NCBI GenBank assembly: GCA_037043015.1
Contig: CM073323.1
Location: forward strand, 8,308,001-8,372,000
Reading direction: 5' to 3'
Source of the DNA: Bryum argenteum
Taxonomy: Eukaryota; Streptophyta; Bryopsida; Bryales; Bryaceae
Length of the DNA stretch: 64,000 bases
Below the pieces are notes generated by a model. It was not told where the DNA came from, did no database searches, and worked only from the letters and a program-made list of their open reading frames with translations. The first letter of the stretch is position 1, and the number at the start of each line of letters is the position of its first letter. Positions 27,856 to 63,914 of the stretch are shown here, piece after piece. The position numbers were made by a program, and so were the translations under genes.

Positions 27856-28836
27856 TTAACCCCTAAACGTCCCTAGTGTCGAAAAACGACATTTTGGATG
27901 AAGGGCAGAAACTTTGAAGAGCCATAACTTCTTCATCCCGACTCCGTTTTTGACGAAATCACTTGGGTTGGGTCCCAAATAAAGTCTAGTTTGTGTGGTA
28001 CAAATTGCAGACCCATAAAATAAAGTATGAATTAATGGCATGCATTTTAGTGACAGCAGCTTTTGGTTTTGAGATTTCAAACATTGGGCATGTTTCACCA
28101 TTGCAAGCCAATTATGTGAAATCTAAAATATTTTTTCATGAATTTTTTTTACATAAGTATGATCTTTAGATGTATTCTAACAACTTTCTAGTTGCAAGTT
28201 TTTCGATCCAAATAACTTTGCTAGTGGATTTGCAATGATGTTTCTACAATGAAAAAAGTGAAAAAATGGATGATTTTTGAGGAGCTAGATCTCCTTCATC
28301 CACCGTTAGATTTCGACTTTATTCTTTGGGATAGATTCCAATCATAGTCTATTTTAAGTGGTAGAAACCTTAACCTAATTGAAGATGTATTGAAAATAGG
28401 GCATGGATTTGAGTGCAAAGGGTCTAGTTTTGGACTATTTTTCCTTTGTAAATTTTGAGGCAGTTTTCACCATTGGAAGGCTACTATTTGAGCCAAGATA
28501 TTTTTTTGATGAATTTTTTTGGTACAAAAGTGTTTTTGAGATGAAGATGAACAACTTTCTAGTTGGTGATTTTTTGATTGCAAATTTCATGTTGGTAGTA
28601 TTTTCACTTCAAAGTGGAAATGATGGTATTTTGTAGCCTGTTTTGCGCACTAATATGTTATGATCTCGCAATCTATGAGGTCCCATGAGTCAAGTTTTGG
28701 CCCACATGATCTACTACAAGTCTATTACAAGTTTGTACGGTTAAGATCTGAATAGCTTATCTTTATTTTCATCTATATCACTTTTTTTGAAAATGAGTTT
28801 TTGGCTAAAAATACCCCAAGGACGTTTAGGGGTTAA
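27856..28836. mobile_element. TTAA-flanked piggyBac-like non-autonomous element PB-A (981 bp)
   Basis: Begins TTAACCCCTAAACGTCC and ends with the exact reverse complement, GGACGTTTAGGGGTTAA: 13-bp perfect terminal inverted repeats starting CCC, inside duplicated TTAA. The related repeat copy at 33.83 kb is the unfilled site (TCTAGATTC-GTAATGTTAC), and a second at 57.84 kb reads, on the minus strand, TCTAGATTC-TGAATGTTAC. Thus the filled copy arose by insertion into a single TTAA between GATTC and TGTT. There is no transposase; the interior is AT-rich and non-coding. TTAA specificity and CCC..GGG ends are the hallmarks of the piggyBac superfamily. Confidence 0.8.
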
Positions 28837-29915: not shown

Positions 29916-30078
29916 TTAATATGACTTTGGTACCCATCTGATTTGATTTCTGAAGTTTATTGGAAGGACTTGAAACTTTTTGCATTGCAGAGCTTTTCTT
30001 TTTTAAAAAAAATTCATTCGTACATAACTTTTCAAATTTTCTCATACTTAGTTTTTATGCAGGACAAACTATTTTGGT

Positions 30079-30664
30079 TTAACCCCTAAAGATCCAGGAC
30101 CTCCACATCGGCGTTTTGCTATTTTGGGCAGCCTAGATGAATAGGTTAACAGTAATATTTTTGCCTAAATTTTTTAATTGGTACTCCATATTCTGCAAAG
30201 TGTATGTTGTAAAATTTGCAAAGCCAAATTCCAATTTTTGAGTCTTTTACGGCAATTCTTGGTTGGCGAGTCGAACTGGGGCAGTTTAAATTTAGTATTC
30301 TTTTGAGATTTTTTTTTTCGAAATATGTTCATGACCAAATCACTACTTAAGTTCCAAAGGGCCCCAAGTCACAAAAAGTACCAATTTTACAAGGGCAGTC
30401 TCCAAAAGTGTGAAAAATAATCTCAACAATGCCCAAAAAAACTTCGTACACAAACTTTGGATGTTATGATCTCTAAAATGGTAAACATCCAACAGTCAAT
30501 TTTTGAATGAGATAATGAAAATTGGCTTAGGTACAAGATCTTACGGTTGGAAATTAAAGAAAGAATTAAAAATCTGTTTCGCGCCCCTTGAAGGCATAGA
30601 GGCAGAGAATTGGAGTTTTGAGGTTTCAAACTCCCAAAAACACCCAAGAATCTTTAGGGGTTAA
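30079..30664. mobile_element. piggyBac-like element PB-C (586 bp)
   Basis: Ends TTAACCCCTAAAGATCC and, on the right, TCTTTAGGGGTTAA, giving about 11-bp inverted repeats inside TTAA. The equivalent place next to Dof copy D (about 60255-60290, reversed) lacks the element and reads TTTTGGTTTTATTATC, close to the predicted unfilled TTTTGG-TTAA-TATC. No coding capacity. Confidence 0.75.
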
Positions 30665-31361
30665 TATCTTCAAGATAAGTGAACCGGTCATGTCATCTGA
30701 GAGGATTAAGCGACGGAATATTCTATCCAGGAGCATGGATACGCCGGACACTAAATTCAATCCAACTGAAGTTGTCCCTTGGACTTTCCAGAACTGGTGG
30801 GGGCTAATAAAAAGATGCCCCTTATATATTGTGCATTAGCCTTTAAAATTTCATGGAGAGGACCATAGGACAGAATGGGGGCGTAGATCCCAAATTTAAA
30901 AATAAAATAAGAAACCCAAGGGTCAAAATGAAAAAATGAAAAAAATAAGAAATTGGAGCCCATCCATAGAGAACCAGGGATTGCTTGTAAATCAGTGCTA
31001 CGAACATTTCTCGGAGGCAAGGGAGAGGGAGGGGTAAGGAGACCCTAATTTTTTAATACCAAGGAGTAGGTTTATAGAATATTTTTGGACCGCAAGCCTC
31101 ATTTTTGAATTCTAAATTATCAAAAACGGTCGCGGGATCCAAATTGAAAATTCCTGGGATTCTCAAGAAAAAATTCCATGGGCTGATGGGGCTCCGCTGG
31201 TATCATTTTTCCCGCCCGGACTGAATGTTGTGAAAGGCGCGGAAACCCTAAAAGGGAGTGGCAGCTCCGTACCCTTCTATCAGTCTGTTGCTTTCGACCT
31301 GTCGGTAGCATTTTCCCGCGCTTGGAACTGGGAGTGTGGGTTCGGCACCAATCCTTTAATG

Positions 31362-31501
31362 ACACGTGTACAGACTAAGACCCCTGCATTTGACCACCCG
31401 GTCATTTCCATGGACTATAAATTGACTTCAGAATGAGCGTTCCCGCTGTGGCCGGAGCTGCAAGTGTGGAGCTGTGTTACTGAGGAGGCTGCGCCAACAT
31501 C
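31362..31501 (+). promoter_or_regulatory. Conserved promoter of Dof-like copy A
   Basis: A TATAAAT box lies at 31416-31422, about 80 bp before the start codon. An ACACGTGT palindrome (G-box-like, CACGTG core) lies at 31362-31369. Both are kept at equivalent positions in copies B and D, while surrounding bases vary. Confidence 0.6.
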
Positions 31502-32308
31502 ATGGCGGTGGAGCGGGAGGATCTCGTGGGCAAGCCGAAGAAGTGCACTCATTGCAAGTATGAAGACGTAAGGATGCACTTCCGCTTCTTCAACAATAAG
31601 AAGCGATCGCAGCCGCGGTACAAGTGCGGGAAATGCACGAAACTTTTCACCCAGGGTGGTACGCACCGGAAGCCGGGGAAGCAGCGAGTGCGACAGGTTG
31701 AAGTGTCCGGACGCAACACCACCAAGTCCAAGCCGTAAGACCCACCAGGTAGACGGTTTGGAGCCCGCCGACGCCAAAGCCCTCGTATTGCCGCTAGTGC
31801 CGATGAAACGAAGTCCAGTGCCATCTCTACCAAAGACGATGAAGGATCGATGTTCCTCCGTGGGATTTCAGGTATGTGGGTCACAGGTGATGTTGGTGCC
31901 AACCCTGACGGCAATCAGGAGTTCTCGTCTGAAGGCAATCAGGAGTTCTCGTCTGAGGGCAATCAGGAGTTCTCCTCTGTGCGTGAAGATCTAGTGTTGT
32001 TATCAGGTGAAGATGGCCCCTTCCTTGAGTCCGCAGTTTCTAGCGATGACGAAGATGGGTTGATGAGCCCGGACAAGAGTCCAGAGAAGTGCGCTCTAGC
32101 TGCTCTAGCCAAAGGTAGAGCCTGGCTTCAGTGTCCGGTTCGTGGAAGGTACGGAAAAGACGTCGAGTCTACCTCGAGCCTTTTCACAGACGAGGAGGCT
32201 TGTCCTCCCAAGAAACTCCAACGAATCCTTTTCAAGCATGAGAAACTCCAACGAATCCATTTCAAGCATGAGGACTTCTCATTTGTAAGGTGGGGTCGAG
32301 TTTTGTAA
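31502..32308 (+). pseudogene. Dof-like zinc-finger gene, copy A (one in-frame stop)
   Basis: Frame opens at 31502 (MAVEREDLVGKPKKC) and runs to 32308 with a single TAA at 31736-31738, so translation should give only 78 residues. The N-terminus holds a Dof-type finger: CTHC, then 23 residues including FFNNKKRSQPRYK, then CGKC and LFTQGGTHR. Canonical Dof fingers are C-x2-C-x21-C-x2-C with a YYNN..SQPR..C core, so this one has a two-residue longer loop. The rest, if read, is a Ser/Arg linker, MWVTGDVGANP, three tandem GNQEFSSE-type repeats (31912-31977), an acidic stretch and two FKHE repeats. A short Dof-finger-only protein could still bind DNA and act as a competitor; that is inference. Confidence 0.65.
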
Positions 32309-34160
32309 GGGTGTGCTTGTTGAAGAGGTTCATTGTTATTATTGGTGTTTTTCTTTGCATTAGCTTGCAATGAGTGACATTCCAAATTGTAGCAATGTCT
32401 CTCTCAGTAAACTCATGGCGTCTTGCATTTTTTGGCAAAAGCAACCACTTCCATAGTTATATGAAATGTTCTTATGACTTAAGTGTAAGTATTCCAAGTG
32501 TGACATCATTTGTTATGTTTATGCAATATTTGAGAGCACATTTGTGGGACGAGTTTATGTGCATTGTTGAAATTTTGATATAATCTTGTCCTCCCTTGTC
32601 TAACATTTACCCCTTGCACAATGAGGAGCTTGGTTATGAATTGCTCTACATTCTATAGTATGCATGCATTAACCAAATAGCAAGCAATCACTTCACCGCT
32701 GGACACTTACAATCCTGATCGCTAGATGCTAGGCCTTATAATCTTGATTATCTTTATCATTGGATTACATTTCCAATGAAAGGGGACAATGTCCTAATTC
32801 ACTTTGTCTTCCCTTTCTGCTTCACCTTGTGCTATCGAAGCCGATGCGGATCCTCTTCTACCTTAGCTTGGAAATGTCATGTCCAAGAGGATGTGATGTG
32901 CTCTCATCGGCAAGCCCTATTTGCCGGGCTCTCATTGGCAAGCCCTATTTGCCCGTTTCTGTAAAAGCTCACTCTGCCGCTTTCTTTTCTTTCTAGATCG
33001 TGAGTGTTACTTTTGCTTGCAACTACACGGCTCTGCACACAACAAAGAGCGTTCTGGTTGATAATCTAATTTGTCGGGACGGGATTTGTAGGCCGCTTCG
33101 CACAAATAGGATAATCGTGAGTGAGAGGGGGCGTGAAGGGAGCAGATCTTACTTGTCGCTTTTAGATATCAAGGTATCACATGTTATTACCAATATCGTT
33201 CTTTGGTGTCTAGACATTCATAATTGTAGCAATGTTTCTCTTAGTAGATTCATGGTGTTCTGCAAGTTTTTTGGCACAAGCAACCACATCCGTAGTTACA
33301 TGAAATATTCTTATGGCTTAAGTATAAGTATTCCAAGTGTGACATCATTTGTTATGTTTATGCAATGTTTGAGAGCAGATTTGTGTAACGATTGTGTGTG
33401 TATTGTTGAATTTTTGATATAGTCTTGAATGTCCTCTCTTAAGTCTAACGTTTATCCCTTGCACAATGAGGTGCTCGCCGCCTCGCCCATGAATTGTACA
33501 TTCTATAGTACGTATGCTATTAACCAAATAGCTCCACTAAGCATCCACTTCACCGTTGGACAATTGCAATCCCGATCGTTAGAGGCTAGGCCCTACAATC
33601 TTGATTATCTTGATCTTGATCAGTGGATTATTTACATTTCCCATGACAGGGGACAGTGTCCTAATTCACTCTCATTTCCCTTGCTTCACCTTTGTGCTAC
33701 CTAAGCCGATGCGGATCCTCTTCTACTTTACCATGGAAATCTCTTGTCGAAGAGGATGTGATGTGCTCTCACCGGCAAGCTCAATTTTCCCGTTCAGCTC
33801 AGTCTACCATTTCCTTTTCCTTCTAGATTCGTAATGTTACTTCTGCTTGTAATTACACGGCTCTCCACACAACAAAGAGCGTTTTGTTGATAATCTAAGT
33901 TGTCGGGACAGGATTTGTAGGCCGCTTCGCAAAAATATTAGGATATAATCGTGAGTGAGGGGAGAAGTGAAGCAAGCAGATCTTACGATTCAAACGTTCA
34001 GGGTAAATGTCCCAAGCTCCTGGACACAGACATATGTAGAGAAGAAAACATGTAGATGATTAAGATACTAGCAAACTATCGTCACTGAGCAGCGATTTCA
34101 AGAGTATTCATACGAAGCATTTCAAGTCGAGTAAGAAAGAGGTCACTCGAGTCAGTGTGG
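32309..34160 (+). repeat. 3' repeat blocks of copy A (tandem, diverged, 600-850 bp each)
   Basis: Two diverged copies of one block follow each other. Each contains an AGTATTCCAAGTGTGACATC core inside a conserved open stretch ending VEILI or VEFLI (32374-32583 and 33000-33422). Each then has a CATTCTATAGTAYGYATG start, a GATGCGGATCCTCTTCTACY segment and an ACAACAAAGAGCGTTCTG-like end. The same blocks recur at 27.5, 36.9-38.0, 39.7-40.7 (reversed) and 57.8-58.5 kb (reversed). Whether the conserved open stretch is translated cannot be said. Confidence 0.7.
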
Positions 34161-36379: not shown

Positions 36380-36828
36380 TCACAAGCGATCGCAGCCGTG
36401 GTACAAGTGCGGGAGATGCAAGAAACTTTTCACCAGGGCAGTACGCACCGAGAGATGTATCGGAAGCCGGGGCAGCAGCAAGTGCGACAAGCTTGGAGTG
36501 TCCCAACGCAACACCACCAAGTACAACCCAAGTATGTGGGTCACAAGTGATGTTGGTGCCAACCCTGAGGGCAATCACGAGTTCTTGTCCGTGCGTGAAG
36601 ATCTAGTATTGTTTTCAGGTGAAGATGGCCCCTTCCTTGAGTCCCGCAGTTTCCAGCGATGACAAAGATGGGTTGATGATCCCGGACAATAGTCCACAGA
36701 AGTGCGCTCCAGCGGAAGGTAGAGGTTGGCTTCAGTGTCCTGTTCGTGGAAGCTATGGAAAAGACGTCGAGTCTACATGGAGCCTTTTCATAGACGAGGA
36801 GGCTTGTCCTCCCAAGAAACTCCAATGA
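36380..36828 (+). pseudogene. Dof-like copy C, 5'-truncated and frameshifted
   Basis: Starts abruptly within the finger (FNNHKRSQPWYKCGRCKKLF), so the first Cys pair and start codon are missing. A base is lost near the FTQGG equivalent and an extra C at about 36642-36645 shifts the frame again. Relative to copy A, a segment of about 134 bp is missing between AACCCAA and GTATGTGGG (near 36531). Beyond that it matches A to the end of the acidic tail. Non-functional. Confidence 0.8.
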
Positions 36829-38085
36829 ATCCGTTTCAAGCATGAAGTGTTCTCATTTGAAAGGTGGGTAAGGTGGTTAAGGTGAGGTATTTCTCGTTCG
36901 AGTTTTGTAAGGGTGTGCTTGTTGAAGAGGTTCATTGTTATTATTGGTGTTTTTCTTTGCATTAGCTTGCAATGAGTGACATTCCAAATTGTAGCAATGT
37001 CTCTCTCAGTAAACTCATGGCGTCTTGCATTTTTTGGCAAAAGCAACCACTTCCATAGTTATATGAAATGTTCTTATGACTTAAGTGTAAGTATTCCAAG
37101 TGTGGCATCATTTGTTATGTTTATGCAATATTTGAGAGCACATTTGTGTGACGAGTGTATGTGCATTGTTGAAATTTTGATATAATCTTGTCCTCCCTTG
37201 TCTAACATTTACCCCTTGCACAATGAGGAGCTTGGTTATGAATTGCTCTACATTCTATAGTACGCATGCATTAACCAAATAGCTCCATCAAGCAACCACT
37301 TCACCGTTGGACACTTACAATCCTGATCGCTAGATGCTAGGCCTTATAATCTTGATTATCTTTATCATTGGATTACATTTCCAATGAAAGGGGACAGTGT
37401 CCTAATTCACTTTGTCTTCCGTTTCCGCTTCACCTTTGTGCTATCGAAGCCGATGCGGATCCTCTTCTACCTTAGCTTGGAAATGTCATGTCCAAGAGGA
37501 TGTGATGTGCTCTCATCGGCAAGCCCTATTTGCCTGTTTCTGTAAAAGCTCAGTCTGCCGCTTTCTTTTCTTTCTAGATCGTGAGTGTTACTTTTGCTTG
37601 CAATTACACGGCTTTGCACACAACAAAGAGCGTTCTGGTTGATTATCTAAATTGTCGGGACAAGATTTGTAGGTCGCTTCACACAAACAGGATAATCGTG
37701 AGTGAGAGGGGACGTGAAGGGAGCAGATCTTCCTTGTCGCTTTTAGATATCAAGGTATCACATGTTATTACCAATGCCGTTCTTTGCATTACCTTACAAT
37801 GGTGTCGAGACATTCATAATTGTAGCAATATTTCTCTTAGTAGATTCATGGCGTTCTGCAAGTTTTTTGGCACAAGCAACCACATCCATAGTTACATGAA
37901 ATATTCTTATAGCTTAAGTATAAGTATTCCAAGTGTGACATCATTTGTTATGTTTATGCAATGTTTGAGAGGAGATTTGTGTAATGATTGTGTGTGCATT
38001 GTTGAATTTTTGATTTAGTCTTGTCCTCTCTTAAGTCTAACATTTACCCTTTGCACAATGAGAGGCTCGCCCATGAATTGTTGTA
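36829..38085 (+). repeat. 3' repeat blocks of copy C
   Basis: Same two blocks as after copy A (open stretches 36976-37185 and 37581-38018). Similarity to A ends near 38085. Confidence 0.75.
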
Positions 38086-39278
38086 CACGTCCGAGGCCCA
38101 CTCTATGATTCACACATCCCAGTAATTCTTCATGGCAATGGGTGTAGAATTGCGAGTTGCTTTTATTCGTGGTTCAGATTGGTTGCTCTTCAAATGTGAC
38201 GGTCGTAATGACTTGACCGTGATGACACATAGTACATATTTGAATTGTGCTTCTAATGACATCACAATAAATTATCACTTATCCTTAATTTGTTTTCTAA
38301 TCTACTAGGGTATGGTATGCTTCTTACAACAAAAACAAATTCGAAGAAAAAGTGATAAATATCATAATCATTTTATGTTATTAGAAGCACAATTAAAATT
38401 AACACTTTGTGTCATAACGGTCAAGTCATTATGGCGATCACTTTTAGAGCCATTTTCTTCTAGTGACGAGCTCTCAAATGATATCCTTGTCTCGAGGACC
38501 CAAAATTGTTCTCTAGATAGCCGAAAAAGGTTTTTGAGATTTCACAAAAAGCACAAAAAGGAAAACGTCTAGAATAAGTGTGCTTTTTAAGCTCCATGTA
38601 TTGTGCCAATGCGCAGATGAGGGTGTGCAGTTTTGGAGCCGTGTTCATGAGGGTGTGCGGTTCAAATATCATGGCGGTGGAAAAGAAGGATCTCGTAAAT
38701 TTTCAATTGATTTTAATTACCAAAGTAACGTAATCATTGTCCATTTGTGAGTCATGGATAAAGAATATATAAGCTATTATTTATCCAAACTTCAAATTGA
38801 TATATGTCTTTTAATTCTTTGGAGGACATTGTATAAAATATTTGCATGGAGGATACTCACTTTCATTAAAATGAAACCGTTATATGTACAAGAGTAGCAT
38901 ATTTTTGAGGAACCAAAATGTCACATACATGTATGGTTATGTAGTTTAAACCTCAAAACGTTACTCAAATGCAACTGAGGTACATTGGAAGGTCAAAAAT
39001 TGTTGTGGTTTTGATAGATTTTGACCCTCAAATGTTTCTCAATGGTTGTTAAGAAATATTTGAGGGTCAAAGTTGTCGAAAGGTGTAGTATTGAAGAATT
39101 AAAAGTCATAATGAAATTTTTTGAAGAACTGATTAGAAGACAATCCCATCACATGCTAGAATTCATCTGAGTAATTCCAAAAAAAAGCATGACAAACTCG
39201 GCAACAGCGGAGAAGCGCTACATCATCCGAACATGGGGATGATTGGAAGCATGACACCCGTCTGGAGGGTGTCTGGAG
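38086..39278. other. Intergenic spacer before the right inverted-repeat arm
   Basis: AT-rich. Around 38.2-38.46 kb a short inverted repeat (AATGACTTGACCGT... and ACGGTCAAGTCATTATGG) brackets about 200 bp and may be a foldback element. A Dof-gene start fragment lies at 38671-38698. Confidence 0.4.
38671..38698 (+). pseudogene. Isolated start fragment of a Dof-like gene
   Basis: ATCATGGCGGTGGAAAAGAA and the next eight bases encode MAVEKKDLV, matching the first residues of copies A, B and D. It stops before the zinc finger. It lies 2.3 kb downstream of truncated copy C on the same strand, as if the copy had been permuted. Confidence 0.6.
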
Positions 39279-39292
39279 GATAAACGTTAGAC

Positions 39293-39662
39293 TTAACCCT
39301 TAAACGCCCAAGCATGCCCGAGGGGCATGATTCCAACAGAATCTTCCTTGTAGCTCTCACTGTACTCAACATTTCACTCATATTTTGATGTCAAACTGGT
39401 CACCTTCTTCTGATGCATTCAAAAAGTGAAATTTCACAATTCAAATCACAATTTGTATGAATGATTTTGTGCTTTGAAAGGATTGTGGTAGGTAGGTTGG
39501 GGTGGTACATAACCTTGTAGGAGGTTGCAAGCTCATCATTGATTGGCCTATTCATGATGCCCAAGTTCAAAAAGTGCACTATTCATGATGCCCAAGTCCA
39601 AAAGATGCTGTGATCCAATTTTGGGCTGCCCGTTTCAGACCCCATGGGCGTTTAAGGGTTAA
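39293..39662. mobile_element. piggyBac-like element PB-D (370 bp) with a proven empty site
   Basis: Left end TTAACCCTTAAACGCCCA, right end TGGGCGTTTAAGGGTTAA, perfect inverted repeats inside TTAA. The other inverted-repeat arm is the unfilled site: at 33433-33450 it reads CCTCTCTTAAGTCTAACG, while here the two halves (reversed) GTTAGAC and GAGAGG flank the element with TTAA on both sides. This is a precise single-TTAA insertion with TTAA duplication. A close relative, PB-E, sits at 51921-52290. Non-coding. Confidence 0.88.
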
Positions 39663-40796
39663 GAGAGGACATTCAAGACTATATCAAAAATTCAACAATA
39701 CACACACAATCGTTACACAAATCTGCTCTCAAACATTGCATAAACATAACAAATGATGTCACACTTGGAATACTTATACTTAAGCCATAAGAATATTTCA
39801 TGTAACTACGGATGTGGTTGCTTGTGCCAAAAAACTTGCAGAACACCATGAATCTACTAAGAGAAACATTGCTACAATTATGAATGTCTAGACACCAAAG
39901 AACGATATTGGTAATAACATGTGATACCTTGATATCTAAAAGCGACAAGTAAGATCTCGCTCCCTTCACGCCCTCTCACTCACGATTATCCTATTTGTGC
40001 GAAGCGGCCTACAAATCCCGTCCCGACAAATTAGATTATCAACCGTAACGCTCTTTGTTGTGTGTGCAGAGTCGTGTAGTTGCAAGCAAAAGTAACACTC
40101 ACGATCTAGAAAGAAAAGAAAGCGGCAGAGAGAGCTTTACGAAACGGGCAAATAGGGCTTGCCAATGAGAGCCCGGCAAAATAGGGCTTGCCGATGAGAG
40201 CACATCACATCCTCTTGGACATGACATTTCCAAGCTAAGGTAGAAGAGGATCCGCATCGGCCGATGATAGCACAAGGTGAAGCGAAGCGGAAGAAAGACA
40301 AAGTGAATTAGGACATTGTCCCCTTTCATTGGAAATGTAATCCAATGATAAAGATAATCAAGATTATAAGGCCTAGCATCTAGCGATCAGGATTGTAAGT
40401 GTCCAGCGGTGAAGTGATTGCTTGCTATTTGGTTAATGCATGCATACTATAGAATGTAGAGCAATTCATAACCAAGCTCCTCATTGTGCAAGGGGTAAAT
40501 GTTAGACAAGGGAGGACAAGATTATATCAAAATTTCAACAATGCACATACACTCGTCACACAAATGTGCTCTCAAATATTGCATAAACATAACAAATGAT
40601 GCCACACTTGGAATACTTACACTTAAGTCATAAGAACATTTCATATAACTATGGAAGTGGTTGCTTTTGCCAAAAAATGCAAGACGCCATGAGTTTACTG
40701 AGAGAGACATTGCTACAATTTGGAATGTCACTCATTGCAAGCTAATGCAAAGAAAAACACCAATAATAACAATGAACCTCTTCAACAAGCACACCC

Positions 40797-41570
40797 TTAC
40801 AAAACTCGACCCCACCTTACAAATGAGAAGTCCTCATGCTTGAAATGGATTCGTTGGAGTTTCTCATGCTTGAAAAGGATTCGTTGGAGTTTCTTGGGAG
40901 GACAAGCCTCCTCGTCTGCGAAAAGGCTCGAGGTAGACTCGACGTCTTTTCCGTAGCTTCCACGAACCGGGCACTGAAGCCAGACTCTACCTTCAGCCAG
41001 AGCGCACTTCTCTGGACTCTTGTCCGGGATCATCAACCCATCTTCGTCATCGCTAGAAACTGCGGACTCAAGGAAGGGGCCATCTTCACCTGATAACAAC
41101 ACTAGATCTTCACGCACAGAGGAGAACTCCTGATTGCCCTCAGACGAGAACTCCCGATTGCCCTCAGGGTTGGCACCAACATCACCTGTGACCCACATAC
41201 CTGAAATCCCACGGAGGAACATCGATCCCTCATCGTCTTCGGTAGAGATGGCAGTGGACTTCGTTTCATCGGCACTAGCGGCAATACGAGGGCTTTGGCG
41301 TCGGCGGGCTCCAAACCGTCTACCTGGTGGGTCTTACGGCTTGGACTTGGTGGTGTTGCGTCCGGACACTTCAACCTGTCGCACTCGCTGCTTCCCCGGC
41401 TTCCGGTGCGTACCACCCTGGGTGAAAAGTTTCGTGCATTTCCCGCACTTGTACCGCGGCTGCGATCGCTTCTTATTGTTGAAGAAGCGGAAGTGCATCC
41501 TTACGTCTTCATACTTGCAATGAGTGCACTTCTTCGGCTTGCCCACGAGATCCTCCCGCTCCACCGCCAT
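40797..41570 (-). pseudogene. Dof-like zinc-finger gene, copy B (same in-frame stop as A)
   Basis: Mirror copy of A on the minus strand. It starts at 41570 with the same 78-codon finger-containing ORF ending at 41334; the remaining frame (41222 to 40797) stays open in phase. It has two GNQEFSSE-type repeats where A has three. Sharing the TAA with A means the stop pre-dates the inverted duplication, or the arms have been homogenised by gene conversion. Finger residues CTHC..SQPRYKCGKC are intact. Confidence 0.65.
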
Positions 41571-41712
41571 GATGTTGGCGCAGCCTCCTCAGTAACACAG
41601 CTCCACACTTGCAGCTCCGGCCACAGCGGGAACGCTCATTCTGAAGTCAATTTATAGGCCATGGAAATGACCGGGTGGTCGGATGCAGGTTTGTCTTAGT
41701 CTGTACACGTGT
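41571..41712 (-). promoter_or_regulatory. Conserved promoter of Dof-like copy B
   Basis: TATAAAT box (plus-strand 41650-41656) and ACACGTGT (41705-41712), equivalent to copy A. Confidence 0.55.
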
Positions 41713-42399
41713 CATTAAAGGATTGGTACCGAACTCCCACTTCCAGTTCCAAGCGCGGGAAAATGCTACCGACAGGTCGAAAGCAACAGACTGATAGAAG
41801 GGTACCGAGCTGCCACTCCCTTTTAGGGTTTCCGTGGGTTTTCACATCATCCAATCTGGGCGGGAAAAATGCTATCAGCGGAGCCCCTTCAGCCCATGGG
41901 ATTTTTCTTCAGAATCCCAGGAATTTCAATTTGAATCCTGCGGTCGTTTTTGATAACTTAGAATTTAAAAGTGAGGGGACGGTCCCAAAATATTCTAAAA
42001 GTCCACTCCTTGACATTAAAAAATTAGGGGCTCTTTACCCCTCCCTCTCCCTTGCCTCCGAGAAATGTTCGTAGCACTGATTTACAAGCAATCCTGGTTC
42101 TCTATGGATGGGCCCCAATTTCTTGTTTTTTCATTTTGACCCCTTGGATTTTTTATTTTATTTTTAAATTTGGGATCTACGCCCCCATTCTGTCCTATGG
42201 GCCTCACCATGAAATTTTAAAGGCTAATGCACAATATATTAGGGGCATCTTTTTATTAGCCCCCACCATATCTGGAAAGTCCAAGGGACAACTTTAGTTG
42301 GATTGAATTTAGTGTCCGGCGTATCCATGCTCCTAGATAGAATATATTGTCGCTTAATCCTCTCAGATGACATGACCTGTTCACTTATCTTGAAGGATA

Positions 42400-42969
42400 T
42401 TAACCCCTAAAGATCCTTGGGTGTTTTTGGGAGCTTGAAACCTCAAAACTCCTGTTCTCTACCTCTATGCACTTCAAGGGGTGCAAAACAAATTTTTAAT
42501 TCTTTCTTTAATTTCCAACCGTATGATCTTGTACCTAAAAGATTCAAAAATTGACCGTTGGATGTTTACCATTCTAGAGATCATAACATCCAAAGTTTGT
42601 CTACAAAGTTTTTTTGGGCATTGTTGAGATTATTTTTGACACTTTTGGAGGCTGCCCTTGTAAAATTGGTACTTTGTGTGACTTGGGGCCCTTTGGAACT
42701 TAAGTAGTGATTTGGTCATGAACCTATTTCCAAAAAAAAAAAATCAAGAAAATATTAAATTTAAACTGCCCGAATTTGGCTCGCAAACCAAGAATTGTTG
42801 TAGAAGACTCAAAAATTGGAATTTGGCTTTGCAAATTTTACCACATACACTTTGCAGTATAGGGAATACCCATTAAAATTTTAGGCAAAATTATCACTTT
42901 AACCTATTCATCTAGGCTGCCCAAAATAGCAAAACGCCAATTTGGAGGTCTTGGATCTTTAGGGGTTAA
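42400..42969. mobile_element. piggyBac-like element PB-C' (inverted duplicate of PB-C)
   Basis: 570 bp, TTAACCCCTAAAGATCC at one end and GGATCTTTAGGGGTTAA at the other. It is the PB-C insertion carried along by the inverted duplication, not an independent insertion, because both arms share it at the same place. Confidence 0.75.
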
Positions 42970-42990
42970 ACCAAAATTGTTCGGTAGATA

Positions 42991-51537: not shown

Positions 51538-51917
51538 ACCCGTAAGCGCCTCATGGGGTCTGAAACGGGCAGCCCAAAATTGGATCACAGAATCTTCTTG
51601 GACTTGGGCATCATGAATATGCACTTTTTGAACTTGGGCATCATAAACAGTGTACTTTTTGACCAGGAGTGAGCCAATCAAGGATGAGCTTGCAACCTCC
51701 TACAAGGTTATGTACAACCCCAACCCACCTACCACAATCCTTTCAAGCACAAAATCACTCATACAAATTCTCTTTTGAATTGTAAAATTTCACTTTTTGA
51801 ATGCATCATGTAAGAAGGTGACCAGTTTGACATCGTAATACAACCGAAAAGTTGTGTACAGAGATTTCCCTGTTAGATAAAAACCCCTCAGCCCTTCCTC
51901 GGGCGTTGAAGGATTAA
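51538..51917 (-). mobile_element. Degenerate piggyBac-like element PB-F
   Basis: Inverted, diverged relative of PB-D/PB-E: CCCATGGGGTCTGAAACGGG-like start, then the same interior in reverse. It ends at TTAA 51914-51917. Its outer terminus has decayed (GTAAGCGCC for TTAAACGCC). Confidence 0.65.
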
Positions 51918-51920
51918 CCC

Positions 51921-52290
51921 TTAACCCTTAAACGCCCAAGGTGACCCGAGGGGTCACCTTCCAACAGAATCTTCTCTGTAGCTCTCACTGTACTCAATTT
52001 TTCACTTATATTTTGATGTCAAACTCGTCACCTTCTTCTAATGCATTCAAAAAGTGAAATTTTACAATTCATATCACAATTTGTATGAGTGATTTTGTGC
52101 TTTGAAAGGATTGTGGTAGCGAGGTTGGGGTTGTACATAACCTTGTAGGAGGTTGCAAGCTCATCATTGATTGGTGCATTCATGATGCCCTTGTTCAAAA
52201 AGTGCACTATTCATGATGCCCAAGTCCAAAAGATGCTGTGATCCAATTTTGGGCTGCCCGTTTCACACCCCATGGGCGTTTAAGGGTTAA
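51921..52290 (+). mobile_element. piggyBac-like element PB-E (370 bp)
   Basis: Same family and length as PB-D: TTAACCCTTAAACGCCCA at the left, TGGGCGTTTAAGGGTTAA at the right, interior highly similar. It abuts PB-F head to head. Arm L lacks both and reads AGATAACTAAACTAATTATC at the matching place (about 45930), consistent with insertion into a TTAA there. Confidence 0.8.
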
Positions 52291-53858: not shown

Positions 53859-54295
53859 TTAACCTCAATTCCGTTAAAATGGCACAATTCCTTGTGCCAT
53901 ATTGCCAAAGCCATGTTGTGCCAATTTGGTCGCGTTTCTGAAACGTGCCATTTTACCGGCATATTTTTGAACTCAAAATCTCAAAGATTTATGCTTGCAA
54001 AATGGCACGTTTTTTAATATCACCCACATCTTCCATTATATCAACAAATTTCTGTAATATCATCAAAAATTCCATAATATCACACTATTTGATAAATTTT
54101 GACCTTCAAATTCTGTCGAAGGGCAGTTTTTCTCAACGGCCGCTCAGAAATATCTCTGATTTTGAGCGGCCGCTCAAAAAAATTTGCTCTATTATGTCAA
54201 AAAATGACAAAAACGAGTGTTGTTTTTTTCATTTTTTCCACCTTCAATCGTGCCATTTTACCAGAATATTGCCAAATTAACGGAATTGAGGTTAA
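53859..54295. mobile_element. TTAA-flanked element of a second family (437 bp)
   Basis: Left end TTAACCTCAATTCCGTTAAA and right end TTAACGGAATTGAGGTTAA: 15-bp perfect inverted repeats next to TTAA on both sides. The interior has a second inverted pair (AAATGGCAC near 53880 and GTGCCATTTT near 54250) and a GAGCGGCCGCTC palindrome at about 54165. Decayed relatives are at 35170-35400 and 36130-36350. Non-coding; also resembles a piggyBac-type MITE, with an unrelated terminus. Confidence 0.65.
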
Positions 54296-58546: not shown

Positions 58547-59344
58547 TCAGTAGTCCTCATGCTTGAAACAAATTGGTTGGAGTTTCTTTACAAATGAGTA
58601 GTCCTCATGCTTGAAACTGATTCGTTGGAGTTTCCTGGGAGGACAAGCCTCCTCGTCGGTGAAAAGGCTCGAGGTAGACTCGACGTCTTTTCCGTAGCCT
58701 CCACGAACCGGAAACTGAAGCCAGGCTCTATCTTCAGCTGAAGCGCACTTCTCTGGACTCTTCTCCAGGATCATCAGCCCATCTTCGTCATCGCTGGAAA
58801 CTGCGGACTCAAGGAAGGGGCCATCTTCACCTGAAAACAACACTAGATCTTCACGCACAGAAGAGAACTCCTGATTGCCCTCAGGGTTGGCACCAACGTC
58901 ACCTGTGACCCACATACCTGGAATCCCACGGAGGAACATCGATCCTTCATCGTCATCGGTAGAGATGCCAATAGACTTCGTTTCATTGGCACTAGCCGCA
59001 GTACGAGGGCTTCGGCTCGCTCCCAACAATCCACCTCGTCGGTCTCCGGGCTTGGACTTGGTGGTGTTGCGTCCGGACACTCCAAGCTGTCGCACTCCGG
59101 GGTTGGACTTGGTGGTGTTGCGTCCGGACACTCCAAGCTGTCGCACTCGCTGCTGCCGCCGCTTCCGATACTTCTCTCGGTGCGCACCACCCTGGGTAAA
59201 AAGATTCTTGCATTTCCCGCACTTGTACCGCGGCTGCGATAGCTTTCCATTGTTGAAGAAGCGGAACTGCATCTTTACGTCTTCATAATCGCAATGAACG
59301 CACCTCTTCGGCTTGCCCACGAGATCCTCCCGCTCCACCGCCAT
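58547..59344 (-). CDS. Divergent Dof-type zinc-finger protein, copy D (265 aa, intact)
   Basis: Uninterrupted 265-codon single exon. Residues about 14-44 form a Dof-type finger: CVHC, a 23-residue loop with FFNNGKLSQPRYK, CGKC, then LFTQGG. Dof proteins are plant-specific DNA-binding regulators recognising AAAG; the usual loop is 21 residues, so this is a variant finger. A basic stretch (KYRKRRQQRVR) follows and may serve as nuclear signal. Then come a 19-residue tandem duplication with the core RQLGVSGRNTTKS (two copies), an invariant MWVTGDVGANPEGNQEFSS block, an acidic Ser/Asp/Glu region that could activate transcription, and two FKHEDY repeats at the end. It is the only copy without the premature stop. 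Promoter: TATAAAT at 59428-59434 and ACACGTGT at 59483-59490. Confidence 0.65.
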   Translation of the reverse strand: MAVEREDLVGKPKRCVHCDYEDVKMQFRFFNNGKLSQPRYKCGKCKNLFTQGGAHREKYRKRRQQRVRQLGVSGRNTTKSNPGVRQLGVSGRNTTKSKPGDRRGGLLGASRSPRTAASANETKSIGISTDDDEGSMFLRGIPGMWVTGDVGANPEGNQEFSSVREDLVLFSGEDGPFLESAVSSDDEDGLMILEKSPEKCASAEDRAWLQFPVRGGYGKDVESTSSLFTDEEACPPRKLQRISFKHEDYSFVKKLQPICFKHEDY

Positions 59345-59490
59345 GATGATGGCGCAGCCTCCTCAGTAACAGGGCTCCACACTTGCAGCTCCGGCCACAG
59401 CCGGAACGCTCATTCCTACTGAAGTCAATTTATAGGCCATGGATCTGGCCTGGTGGTCGGATGCAGGTTTGTTTGAGTCTGTACACGTGT
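59345..59490 (-). promoter_or_regulatory. Promoter of Dof-like copy D
   Basis: TATAAAT box (59428-59434 on +, reversed) and ACACGTGT (59483-59490), conserved with copies A and B. Confidence 0.55.
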
Positions 59491-62246: not shown

Positions 62247-63914
62247 TCATCGTCGATAGCTTGGGTTTGCATTGCGATATATTCTAATATGTGGGCCTTC
62301 GCAGATTGGATAATGCAAATGTTGCTTGGAACCCGCACTCCAAAGACATTGCGGTTTCTCCCTGTTTCTATGGCCGGACATGATTCTTTCTCGTTCGTCC
62401 GCCCATGAAAAAATACATGCCTCTTTCTCTATCCAATCGTGATTCTCCCCGATAGCTCCCACAATGAATCCAAACAACAGCATACCGTTGTAAAGAGGAT
62501 CTCGGTCCGTCAACAACTCCCCTCGTATGATTGGCCAATGCCAACAAACTTTCATCTTGATTTTATTCCGGCCTTTTCCGTCTTCAATCACCTTCCCTAA
62601 ATAAAATGGAACACCTCGTCTACTTACATTTATCAACACCGAGGGCTACAAATTGTCCGAAAAGGATATCGGATTGAGGATCAAATGGGGAAAAGGATCG
62701 TCGGTATCTTCCGATACCGCTTTTTCTTCTTGTTCCATCAAAGATGTGATCACGAGCCGTTCTTTGTGCCCTCTGACCGCTTGGTTAGGTGGCCTCTCTC
62801 TTCAATGACCAAAGTATCCTCTAGCCTCAGAATTTGGAAGCATCGCCACTATTTGGTCCACAATAGTAATCTCGTGGTTTGATTCATTTCGATCGTCAAT
62901 AACATCTATTGATGCATCTATAGTAGGTGATGTCTCTAATACCTCTGAAGGCCAAAGTCACAAGAACTATGCTCGTTGCTACGATCTTTGCTTGGAAATT
63001 CGGCTAGGTATAGTTTCAAATGTTCGGCCTCTCTTTTCGCTTCACCATTTTTTTTCCGATGTTGGAATCTTTGAATGCACCTTTCTTTGTATGCAATAAA
63101 GTCATCCAATGCCTTCAACTCCCTTTCATCAGCTGCAAAGACCTTTGCAAACGATGGTCGTTCTTCTTTATTTGGTAGCGACTGCAACGTCTTTGTCCCT
63201 AACTCAGGTCCCCATTTATCCTTGCTATAATGTTTGTGTTGTACTCGAACCTTACCGACCCCCTCTCGATTGTCCATATAGAATCGCATGTGCGGAAAAG
63301 GTTATGCCAACCAAAGAGTCCCCACCCGTCAGTAAGTGAGGGGTTATGAAGGACTTCCAGTCCCACACATTTTCTAAGAGTCTGGCGCTAACAAACGCCT
63401 CTGTTATGGATGTACCTTGTTCTATTAGACTAAGCATTTCTTTCAATGAGTCGATGTCCGACCTCTTCAACACATTAGATATACAACTAAAGCGTTGGTC
63501 GATATCTTCGTGTGTATGGCCCACTATAAGGAAAGAGAGCTCCACCTCTTGAAAAAAACCCAATCCCACCAATGAAACACATAGAGCAAACATGTAAATG
63601 TTTTTATTCTCTCGTGTGCGAGCTTATCCGCTTGATACGTAATGTTGGAGGCAAAAAGCGTTTTCTCCTCTTCACATCTCCTATCACGCGCAACAATGCG
63701 CTCACCACCTGGTTGCTATCACGTTTGTGGTGCGCGCCGAACCACACATCGCAAAGATAAACCAATCCCATGTACGAGGGCTCCACACAAATGGGTCTTC
63801 ACAAACCGATACTCGATGTTCTTCACGGTTTGACGATTCTCGGTACCATGGTAGTGTTTTGATCCATGCCATCAACGATGATGCATATGTACAAACTCCG
63901 GGTTGATATAGCAC
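62247..63914 (-). pseudogene. DUF7869-type transposase remnant, runs off the window end
   Basis: Minus-strand coding pieces read in order: 63914-63604, then 63593-63252 with FFQEVELSFLIVGHTHEDID followed by QRFS, then 63289-62936, then 62639-62247 with GVPFYLGKVIEDGKG and VCWHWP. The GHTHxDxDQxFS motif, preceded by a RENKN block, typifies the C-terminal RNase-H-like domain (DUF7869) of a large transposon-encoded protein found in algae, early plants and animals. The last piece resembles the small BAH/chromo-like domain that often follows it. At least two frame changes break it: one within the ...ADKLA/RENKN block near 63615-63625, one near 63285. The 5' part lies beyond 64000. Confidence 0.65.

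Follow-up and report, generated by a model that had tools for sequence, protein, structure and literature searches.

Positions 39293-39662 of the window, by which we mean the whole 64,000-nucleotide stretch of DNA analyzed here, hold an element that we call PB-D and annotate, from its sequence and from comparison between copies, as a non-autonomous piggyBac element (MITE). PB-D lies on the + strand, opens with TTAA followed by CCCTTAAACGCCCA and closes with TGGGCGTTTAAGGG followed by TTAA; it measures 370 bp with both TTAA copies and has an interior of 334 bp. The terminal inverted repeats are an exact 14-mer, CCCTTAAACGCCCA, at 39297-39310 (+ strand) and the identical 14 bp reversed at the other end (39645-39658, – strand), confirming the perfect inverted repeats with TTAA on each side that were described in the initial annotation. 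Just within one end lies a subterminal palindrome, CATGCCC-GAG-GGGCATG (39313-39329, + strand), whose arms appear to covary among copies. The 14-mer occurs exactly four times in the window, and all four occurrences are ends of PB-D or of a second PB-D-type element at 51921-52290 (+ strand), which differs from PB-D at 28 of 362 bases. A degenerate end-like sequence sits directly outside this second element at 51900-51913, with three mismatches, a level that is also expected by chance.

TTAA begins at 0.47% of window positions. We searched the window for inverted end pairs flanked by TTAA, with at least 12 of 16 bases matching and the ends less than 7 kb apart. Eight pairs were recovered, compared with none in each of 20 simulated windows built with the window's dinucleotide frequencies. 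Two of the eight are alternative pairings, and the other six correspond to PB-D, 51921-52290, and four elements at 27856-28836, 42400-42969, 30079-30664 and 53859-54295. The 27856-28836 element is 981 bp long and has TTAA on both sides and ends CCCCTAAACGTCC, and a similar end pair is found in L058, another locus. The element at 42400-42969 (570 bp, ends CCCCTAAAGATCC) is likewise flanked by TTAA on both sides, and 30079-30664 is its counterpart in the opposite arm of an inverted repeat. The 437-bp element at 53859-54295 also lies between TTAAs, and its ends (CCTCAATTCCGTTAA) differ from those of PB-D.

Two sites in the window are read as the state of the PB-D target before insertion. One arm of the inverted repeat, at 33144-33442, is the complement of 39659-39957 at 299 of 299 bases, TTAA included, and ends in an empty paralogous TTAA at 33439-33442. 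To the left of the TTAA, this arm and the PB-D flank agree for 15 bases and then part at an unrelated junction near 39277. The initial annotation had presented this as a filled and empty pair with the same flanks; the pair is real and carries one TTAA at 33439-33442, but the match is lopsided, with 299 bp on the right and 15 bp on the left. A third paralogous copy with closely similar flanks holds a second empty TTAA site, TCTCTTAAGTCTAACATTTACCC, at 38031-38034, which strengthens the case. The duplications around PB-D and the two empty sites together demonstrate insertion at TTAA with duplication of the target, so the proposal that TTAA choice and a 4-bp duplication are directly visible here is borne out. 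The surrounding inverted duplication is large (30067-33442 and 39659-42981), with blocks that are 78-100% complementary, and the third, partial copy spans about 36565-38032. Some of the reading frames of the duplication resemble, by eye, the window frame at 58547-59362, which encodes a Dof zinc-finger domain (E 6.1e-10). Another window frame, at 63252-63623, matches DUF7869 (E 3.4e-29) and is possibly a piece of a different mobile element.

The genome that we searched, in which the window lies, comprises 258.8 Mb in 25 contigs, of which C1 to C4 measure 44.1, 34.6, 30.6 and 28.7 Mb. The LEAFY SAM domain gave one strong match, on C5, and the DNA-binding exon beside it is identical at 102 of 107 residues to PDB 4bhk, FLORICAULA/LEAFY HOMOLOG 1; other LEAFY chains score far lower against this exon. 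We take 4bhk to be LFY1 of the moss Physcomitrium patens. A land-plant host, as originally supposed, is borne out by this match, and the host is a moss. Four weaker SAM-domain matches fall on C9, C10 and C3, and 5 kb separates two of those on C9.

The 14-bp end of PB-D occurs exactly 3098 times in this genome, and TTAA directly precedes 2733 of these occurrences (88.2%), leaving 365 without it. Reversed-pattern controls gave no matches for either the 14-mer or TTAA plus the 14-mer. A search with the PB-D interior returned 3038 candidate matches, and the 40 that were scored are all 99-100% identical; scores of 94% and 88% were obtained for two additional matches nearby. The 16 best-matching copies, PB-D among them, differ pairwise at a mean of 1.26 of 362 bases (range 0-3). 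Fifteen of these are bordered by TTAA at each end and the remaining one by TTAT at each end, and their printed 20-bp flanks are all mutually different. Because the 16 copies were picked as the best matches to PB-D, their similarity dates a burst of one subfamily and not the age of the family.

TTAT precedes 29 of the 3098 exact ends. Among five such loci, L056 and L070 carry TTAT on both sides, L068 and L071 have TTAA opposite, and at L069 the partner end was not seen. We read the mixed pairs at L068 and L071 as decay or mismatch. The idea that TTAT is solely decayed TTAA was partly rejected, since L056, L070 and a copy of a second family on C8 all carry it on both sides. Copies on C1 flanked by TTTT and TTAA were considered as an odd target and rejected, since the three examined are a single insertion within a larger repeat. 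Adjacent or head-to-tail piggyBac pairs sharing one TTAA, in which one element sits inserted at the TTAA adjoining a second piggyBac end, were seen at C2:2293749-2294476, C2:1907221-1918618 and L032:224-492; the last adjoins an element that starts at L032 position 489.

A genome-wide profile search with PF13843 (DDE_Tnp_1_7) found 775 candidate places, and the 116 that were scored all lie above the curated cut-off. We fetched 30 of these loci in pieces of about 4.1 kb. A PB-D-like end, with at most four mismatches to the 18-mer, was visible within the piece at nine loci and at none of the other 21. Four of the nine (L009, L010, L018 and L032) were extended, and in all four the transposase lies between two TTAA-bordered ends that depart from the PB-D 18-mer at 0-3 bases, in elements of about 4.9-5.4 kb. 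Elements with PB-D-type ends therefore carry PF13843 transposases, and the autonomous piggyBac partner with shared termini that had been predicted was found at four of four extended loci. The TTAA borders hold genome-wide and the partner transposase is of the piggyBac type, the two points on which the proposal had been left to stand or fall.

L010 contains an intact 886-residue frame with a DDE_Tnp_1_7 core at residues 415-788 (E 1.3e-82) and an in-frame C-terminal tail, CVVC..CPTC..C..C..H, with the pattern of a cysteine-rich zinc-binding domain. The frames of L009, L018 and L032 are broken. L032 has exactly the ends of PB-D at both sides and a frame in two pieces, and L010 has an intact frame and ends that differ at base 14; none of the four extended elements combines an intact full frame with the exact ends of PB-D, and the exact master copy of PB-D was not found among them. 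Among the 30 loci fetched, eight, L010 included, have a single open frame of 886-984 residues. Aligned with L009 and L010, PB-D matches both tips of these elements, the first 106 bp at 66-68% and the last 40 bp or so at 83-84%, in the right order and orientation; shuffled PB-D gave no such two-tip match in 50 trials. Ends that start with CCC or CCY are characteristic of the piggyBac superfamily. Both ends of the elements with CCCTTAAACGCCCA and of the second family with CCCCTAAAGGCCCA start in this way, as does one end, CCCCTCAAGGCCCA, of L016 and L023.

The AlphaFold2 model of the L010 protein has a mean pLDDT of 55.4; values stay under 50 for residues 1-368 and rise well beyond that over most of the core. 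The low values in residues 1-368 may reflect disorder or only too few sequences. We considered whether this long N-terminus might hold a captured domain, and no Pfam domain was detected outside the core at E up to 0.01. The best PDB fold matches are piggyBac (6x67, E 3.9e-25, TM 0.69) and piggyBat (9c0f, E 5.1e-25, TM 0.68), with TM values normalized to the target and an rmsd of about 13 Å in these alignments; the next match is Tn5 (E 7.9e-06, TM 0.40). In the model, the core thus has a fold like that of the solved piggyBac transposases, and piggyBac and piggyBat are also the closest solved relatives of the PF13843 transposases by sequence.

The piggyBac element of Trichoplusia ni (T. ni) targets TTAA, has ends starting with CCC and uses a DDD triad, with catalytic aspartates D268, D346 and D447. 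The moss transposase shares the core family and fold of the T. ni protein (PDB 6x67/6x68) but differs in its moss host, in elements of about 5 kb, and in sequence, with 22% identity in the fold alignment of L010. The match starts at residue 406 of L010 and at residue 121 of the piggyBac chain, and the moss N-terminus is therefore longer. T. ni piggyBac is likewise palindromic inside its ends, as described in PMC11707139, though the palindrome sequence differs from that of the moss. The piggyBat element of Myotis lucifugus (PDB 9c0f) has the same core fold as L010 and, like the moss elements, a palindrome near its end; the moss elements differ from it in host, N-terminal length, end sequence and the variation of the palindrome arms from copy to copy. 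MITEs of two coral genomes are discussed alongside piggyBac and TTAA in PMC2872659, and by this description may be comparable to PB-D. As for viral relatives, 15 stretches in viral_contigs matched a pattern and none was confirmed as a relative.

Six PF13843 matches among the 116 scored tie at 258.4 bits, and three of these equal-score loci, on C4, C8 and C9, were fetched as representatives of a second family. Over 5.7 kb, the copy on C8 shares 99.84% identity with that on C4 and 99.79% with that on C9. These elements end in CCCCTAAAGGCCCA, their printed flanks differ, and the targets, the same on both sides of each copy, are TTAA (C4), TTAT (C8) and TTAA (C9). The second-family end preceded by TTAA occurs 533 times genome-wide. 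By hand count among the matches listed, which cover C1 and C2 up to 22.6 Mb, at least 14 forward-reverse end pairs lie about 5.7 kb apart and at least 26 about 270 bp apart; judging from these spacings, the pairs are copies of full-length size and small derivatives. In all three fetched copies, an 824-residue frame holds nearly the whole DDE_Tnp_1_7 core (positions 3-347 of 349). In the C8 copy (L046 with L065), the sole one examined in this respect, cysteine-rich zinc-finger pieces lie downstream and out of frame with the 824-residue core, an arrangement that splicing or trans-mobilization of a defective copy could explain.

We divided the 30 fetched loci by tblastn into nine of the PB-D clade, whose best stretches are at least 63% identical to L010 (the N-terminal half of L032 excepted), 12 of the second-family clade (at least 50% identical to L046), and nine residual loci that are 30-43% identical to both L010 and L046 and are grouped by tblastn identity alone. 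This division points to at least three coexisting transposase lineages. We aligned 19 transposases picked for open frames from 33 that were fetched, and D560, D639, D752 and W771 are invariant in all of them. The three aspartates, which form a DDD triad, are matched by aspartates in the aligned piggyBac chain. dN/dS was estimated for 12 transposase pairs and is 0.10-0.20 in six and 0.32-0.54 in three, the remaining three being saturated synonymously; dS exceeds 1.4 in four of the six low pairs, so those values are rough.

The subterminal palindrome varies between copies. Among 100 listed of 747 matching ends, drawn from C1 and a portion of C2, the arms are CAAGCCC/GGGCTTG in 52 and CAAGCCC/GGGCATG, with one pair broken, in 27. 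The rest comprise ten with GGTGACCC/GGGTCACC, two with the PB-D form CATGCCC/GGGCATG, and nine single variants. Across 13 arm variants, a mean of 3.31 of the four variable stem positions is paired, compared with 1.90 after arms are swapped between variants. This covariation of the arms is no more than suggestive, given that the copies are related to one another and that the inner CC-GAG-GGG was set by the search pattern. Alternatively, imperfect palindromes could be corrected by template switching, without selection. Among the changes seen, the arms are swapped completely in GGTGACCC/GGGTCACC, and an intermediate with one mismatch is common. In both piggyBac and piggyBat, paired cysteine-rich domains bind such a near-end palindrome, and in piggyBat two of these domains bind close to the end (PMC11707139). 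By analogy, we infer that the cysteine-rich domain of the moss transposase binds the subterminal palindrome.

We are highly confident that PB-D is an internally deleted, non-autonomous moss piggyBac element that inserted at TTAA, has relatives of about 5 kb with a DDD transposase and belongs to a subfamily that spread very recently. PB-D would have arisen as an internal-deletion derivative of the L010-type clade. A transposase of this clade would act on PB-D in trans, as suggested by the ends common to L010-type elements and PB-D. In this mechanism, the C-terminal cysteine-rich domain would recognize and bind the palindrome next to the end, cleavage by the DDD core would fall where the element borders TTAA, and a 4-base TTAA overhang would join a new TTAA. 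The copies support recent jumping by a cut-and-paste piggyBac family in the moss, and the suggestion of recent activity is upheld by the 16 best PB-D copies, which are 0-3 of 362 bases apart, and by the three 5.7-kb relatives on three chromosomes, which are about 99.8% identical.

Short inverted ends and TTAA by themselves name no superfamily, and PB-D could in principle belong to another group that targets TTA or TTAA, such as PIF/Harbinger, and resemble piggyBac by convergence. PIF/Harbinger elements make a 3-bp TWA duplication and encode a different transposase. Here, the duplications are 4-bp TTAA or TTAT, and PF13843 transposases, whose nearest solved relatives in both fold and sequence are piggyBac and piggyBat, are carried by large elements that share the PB-D ends and resemble PB-D in subterminal sequence. 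The linked PF13843 transposase contradicts convergence of the PIF/Harbinger type, which we regard as very improbable, and the identification as piggyBac stands. It is equally hard to credit that PB-D copies multiplied mainly within larger repeats or segmental duplications and not by their own transposition. Such passive copying does occur, as with the three C1 loci that share a single insertion within a larger repeat and the element present in both inverted-repeat arms of the window (42400-42969 and 30079-30664), but the 16 near-identical copies all have different flanks, each with its matching 4-bp duplication, and two empty sites (33439 and 38031) lie within the window.

Whether the family still moves is a more finely balanced matter. 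It may have been active recently and now be dead, with the complete expressed transposase gone; the broken frames of L009, L018 and L032 and the out-of-frame zinc-finger region of the second-family C8 copy are consistent with this reading. Against it stand the single open frames of 886-984 residues in eight of the 30 loci, L010 among them, and the near-zero divergence of the best-matching copies of both PB-D and the 5.7-kb family. We consider extinction a serious possibility that falls clearly short of an even chance. We also advance, tentatively and at slightly less than even probability, that the moss hosts a living piggyBac radiation of at least three lineages, at least one of them transposing today, in which a CRD-type palindrome has been repeatedly rewritten and has yet stayed palindromic. 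If true, this would be the first piggyBac system well documented as naturally active in a land plant.

PiggyBac is in wide use for genome engineering, and the members that have been studied well come from animals. Judged by its copies, the moss family is a genuine, recent and large expansion of a known kind of element, notable for its host, scale and recency. PiggyBac-like elements are reported in general terms from fungi, plants and animals in PMC10813416, PMC8086355 and PMC10140906. For the fern Ceratopteris, the PiggyBac row of a repeat table (PMC6890710) gives 1230 and 122417, which we take as copies and bases. Our literature search, of partial coverage, found no study of piggyBac in mosses, and the word piggyBac is absent from the main text of three moss genome papers (PMC11228847, PMC13120521 and PMC9946827). 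In another, PMC10619864, one of two occurrences of the word is 'piggybacking' and does not refer to the transposon. The statement that such elements are little described in land plants fits this literature within that coverage. A recent, high-copy expansion of several families in a moss indicates that the piggyBac superfamily can thrive in land-plant nuclei. The moss elements offer candidate plant-adapted transposases, and their near-identical copies and empty sites provide material with which excision, the choice of TTAA and the recognition of ends can be studied in plants.

The elements are unevenly distributed between contigs. C1, the largest contig seen at 44.1 Mb, is strongly depleted, with 44 of the 2733 matches to TTAA plus the PB-D end by hand count, or 1.0 per Mb compared with 12.5 per Mb elsewhere. 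Its share of the other sets is nine of the 533 second-family ends and five of the 116 best-scored transposase matches. C1 may be a sex chromosome, by analogy with Niphotrichum, in which the largest chromosome is gene-poor (PMC10619864).
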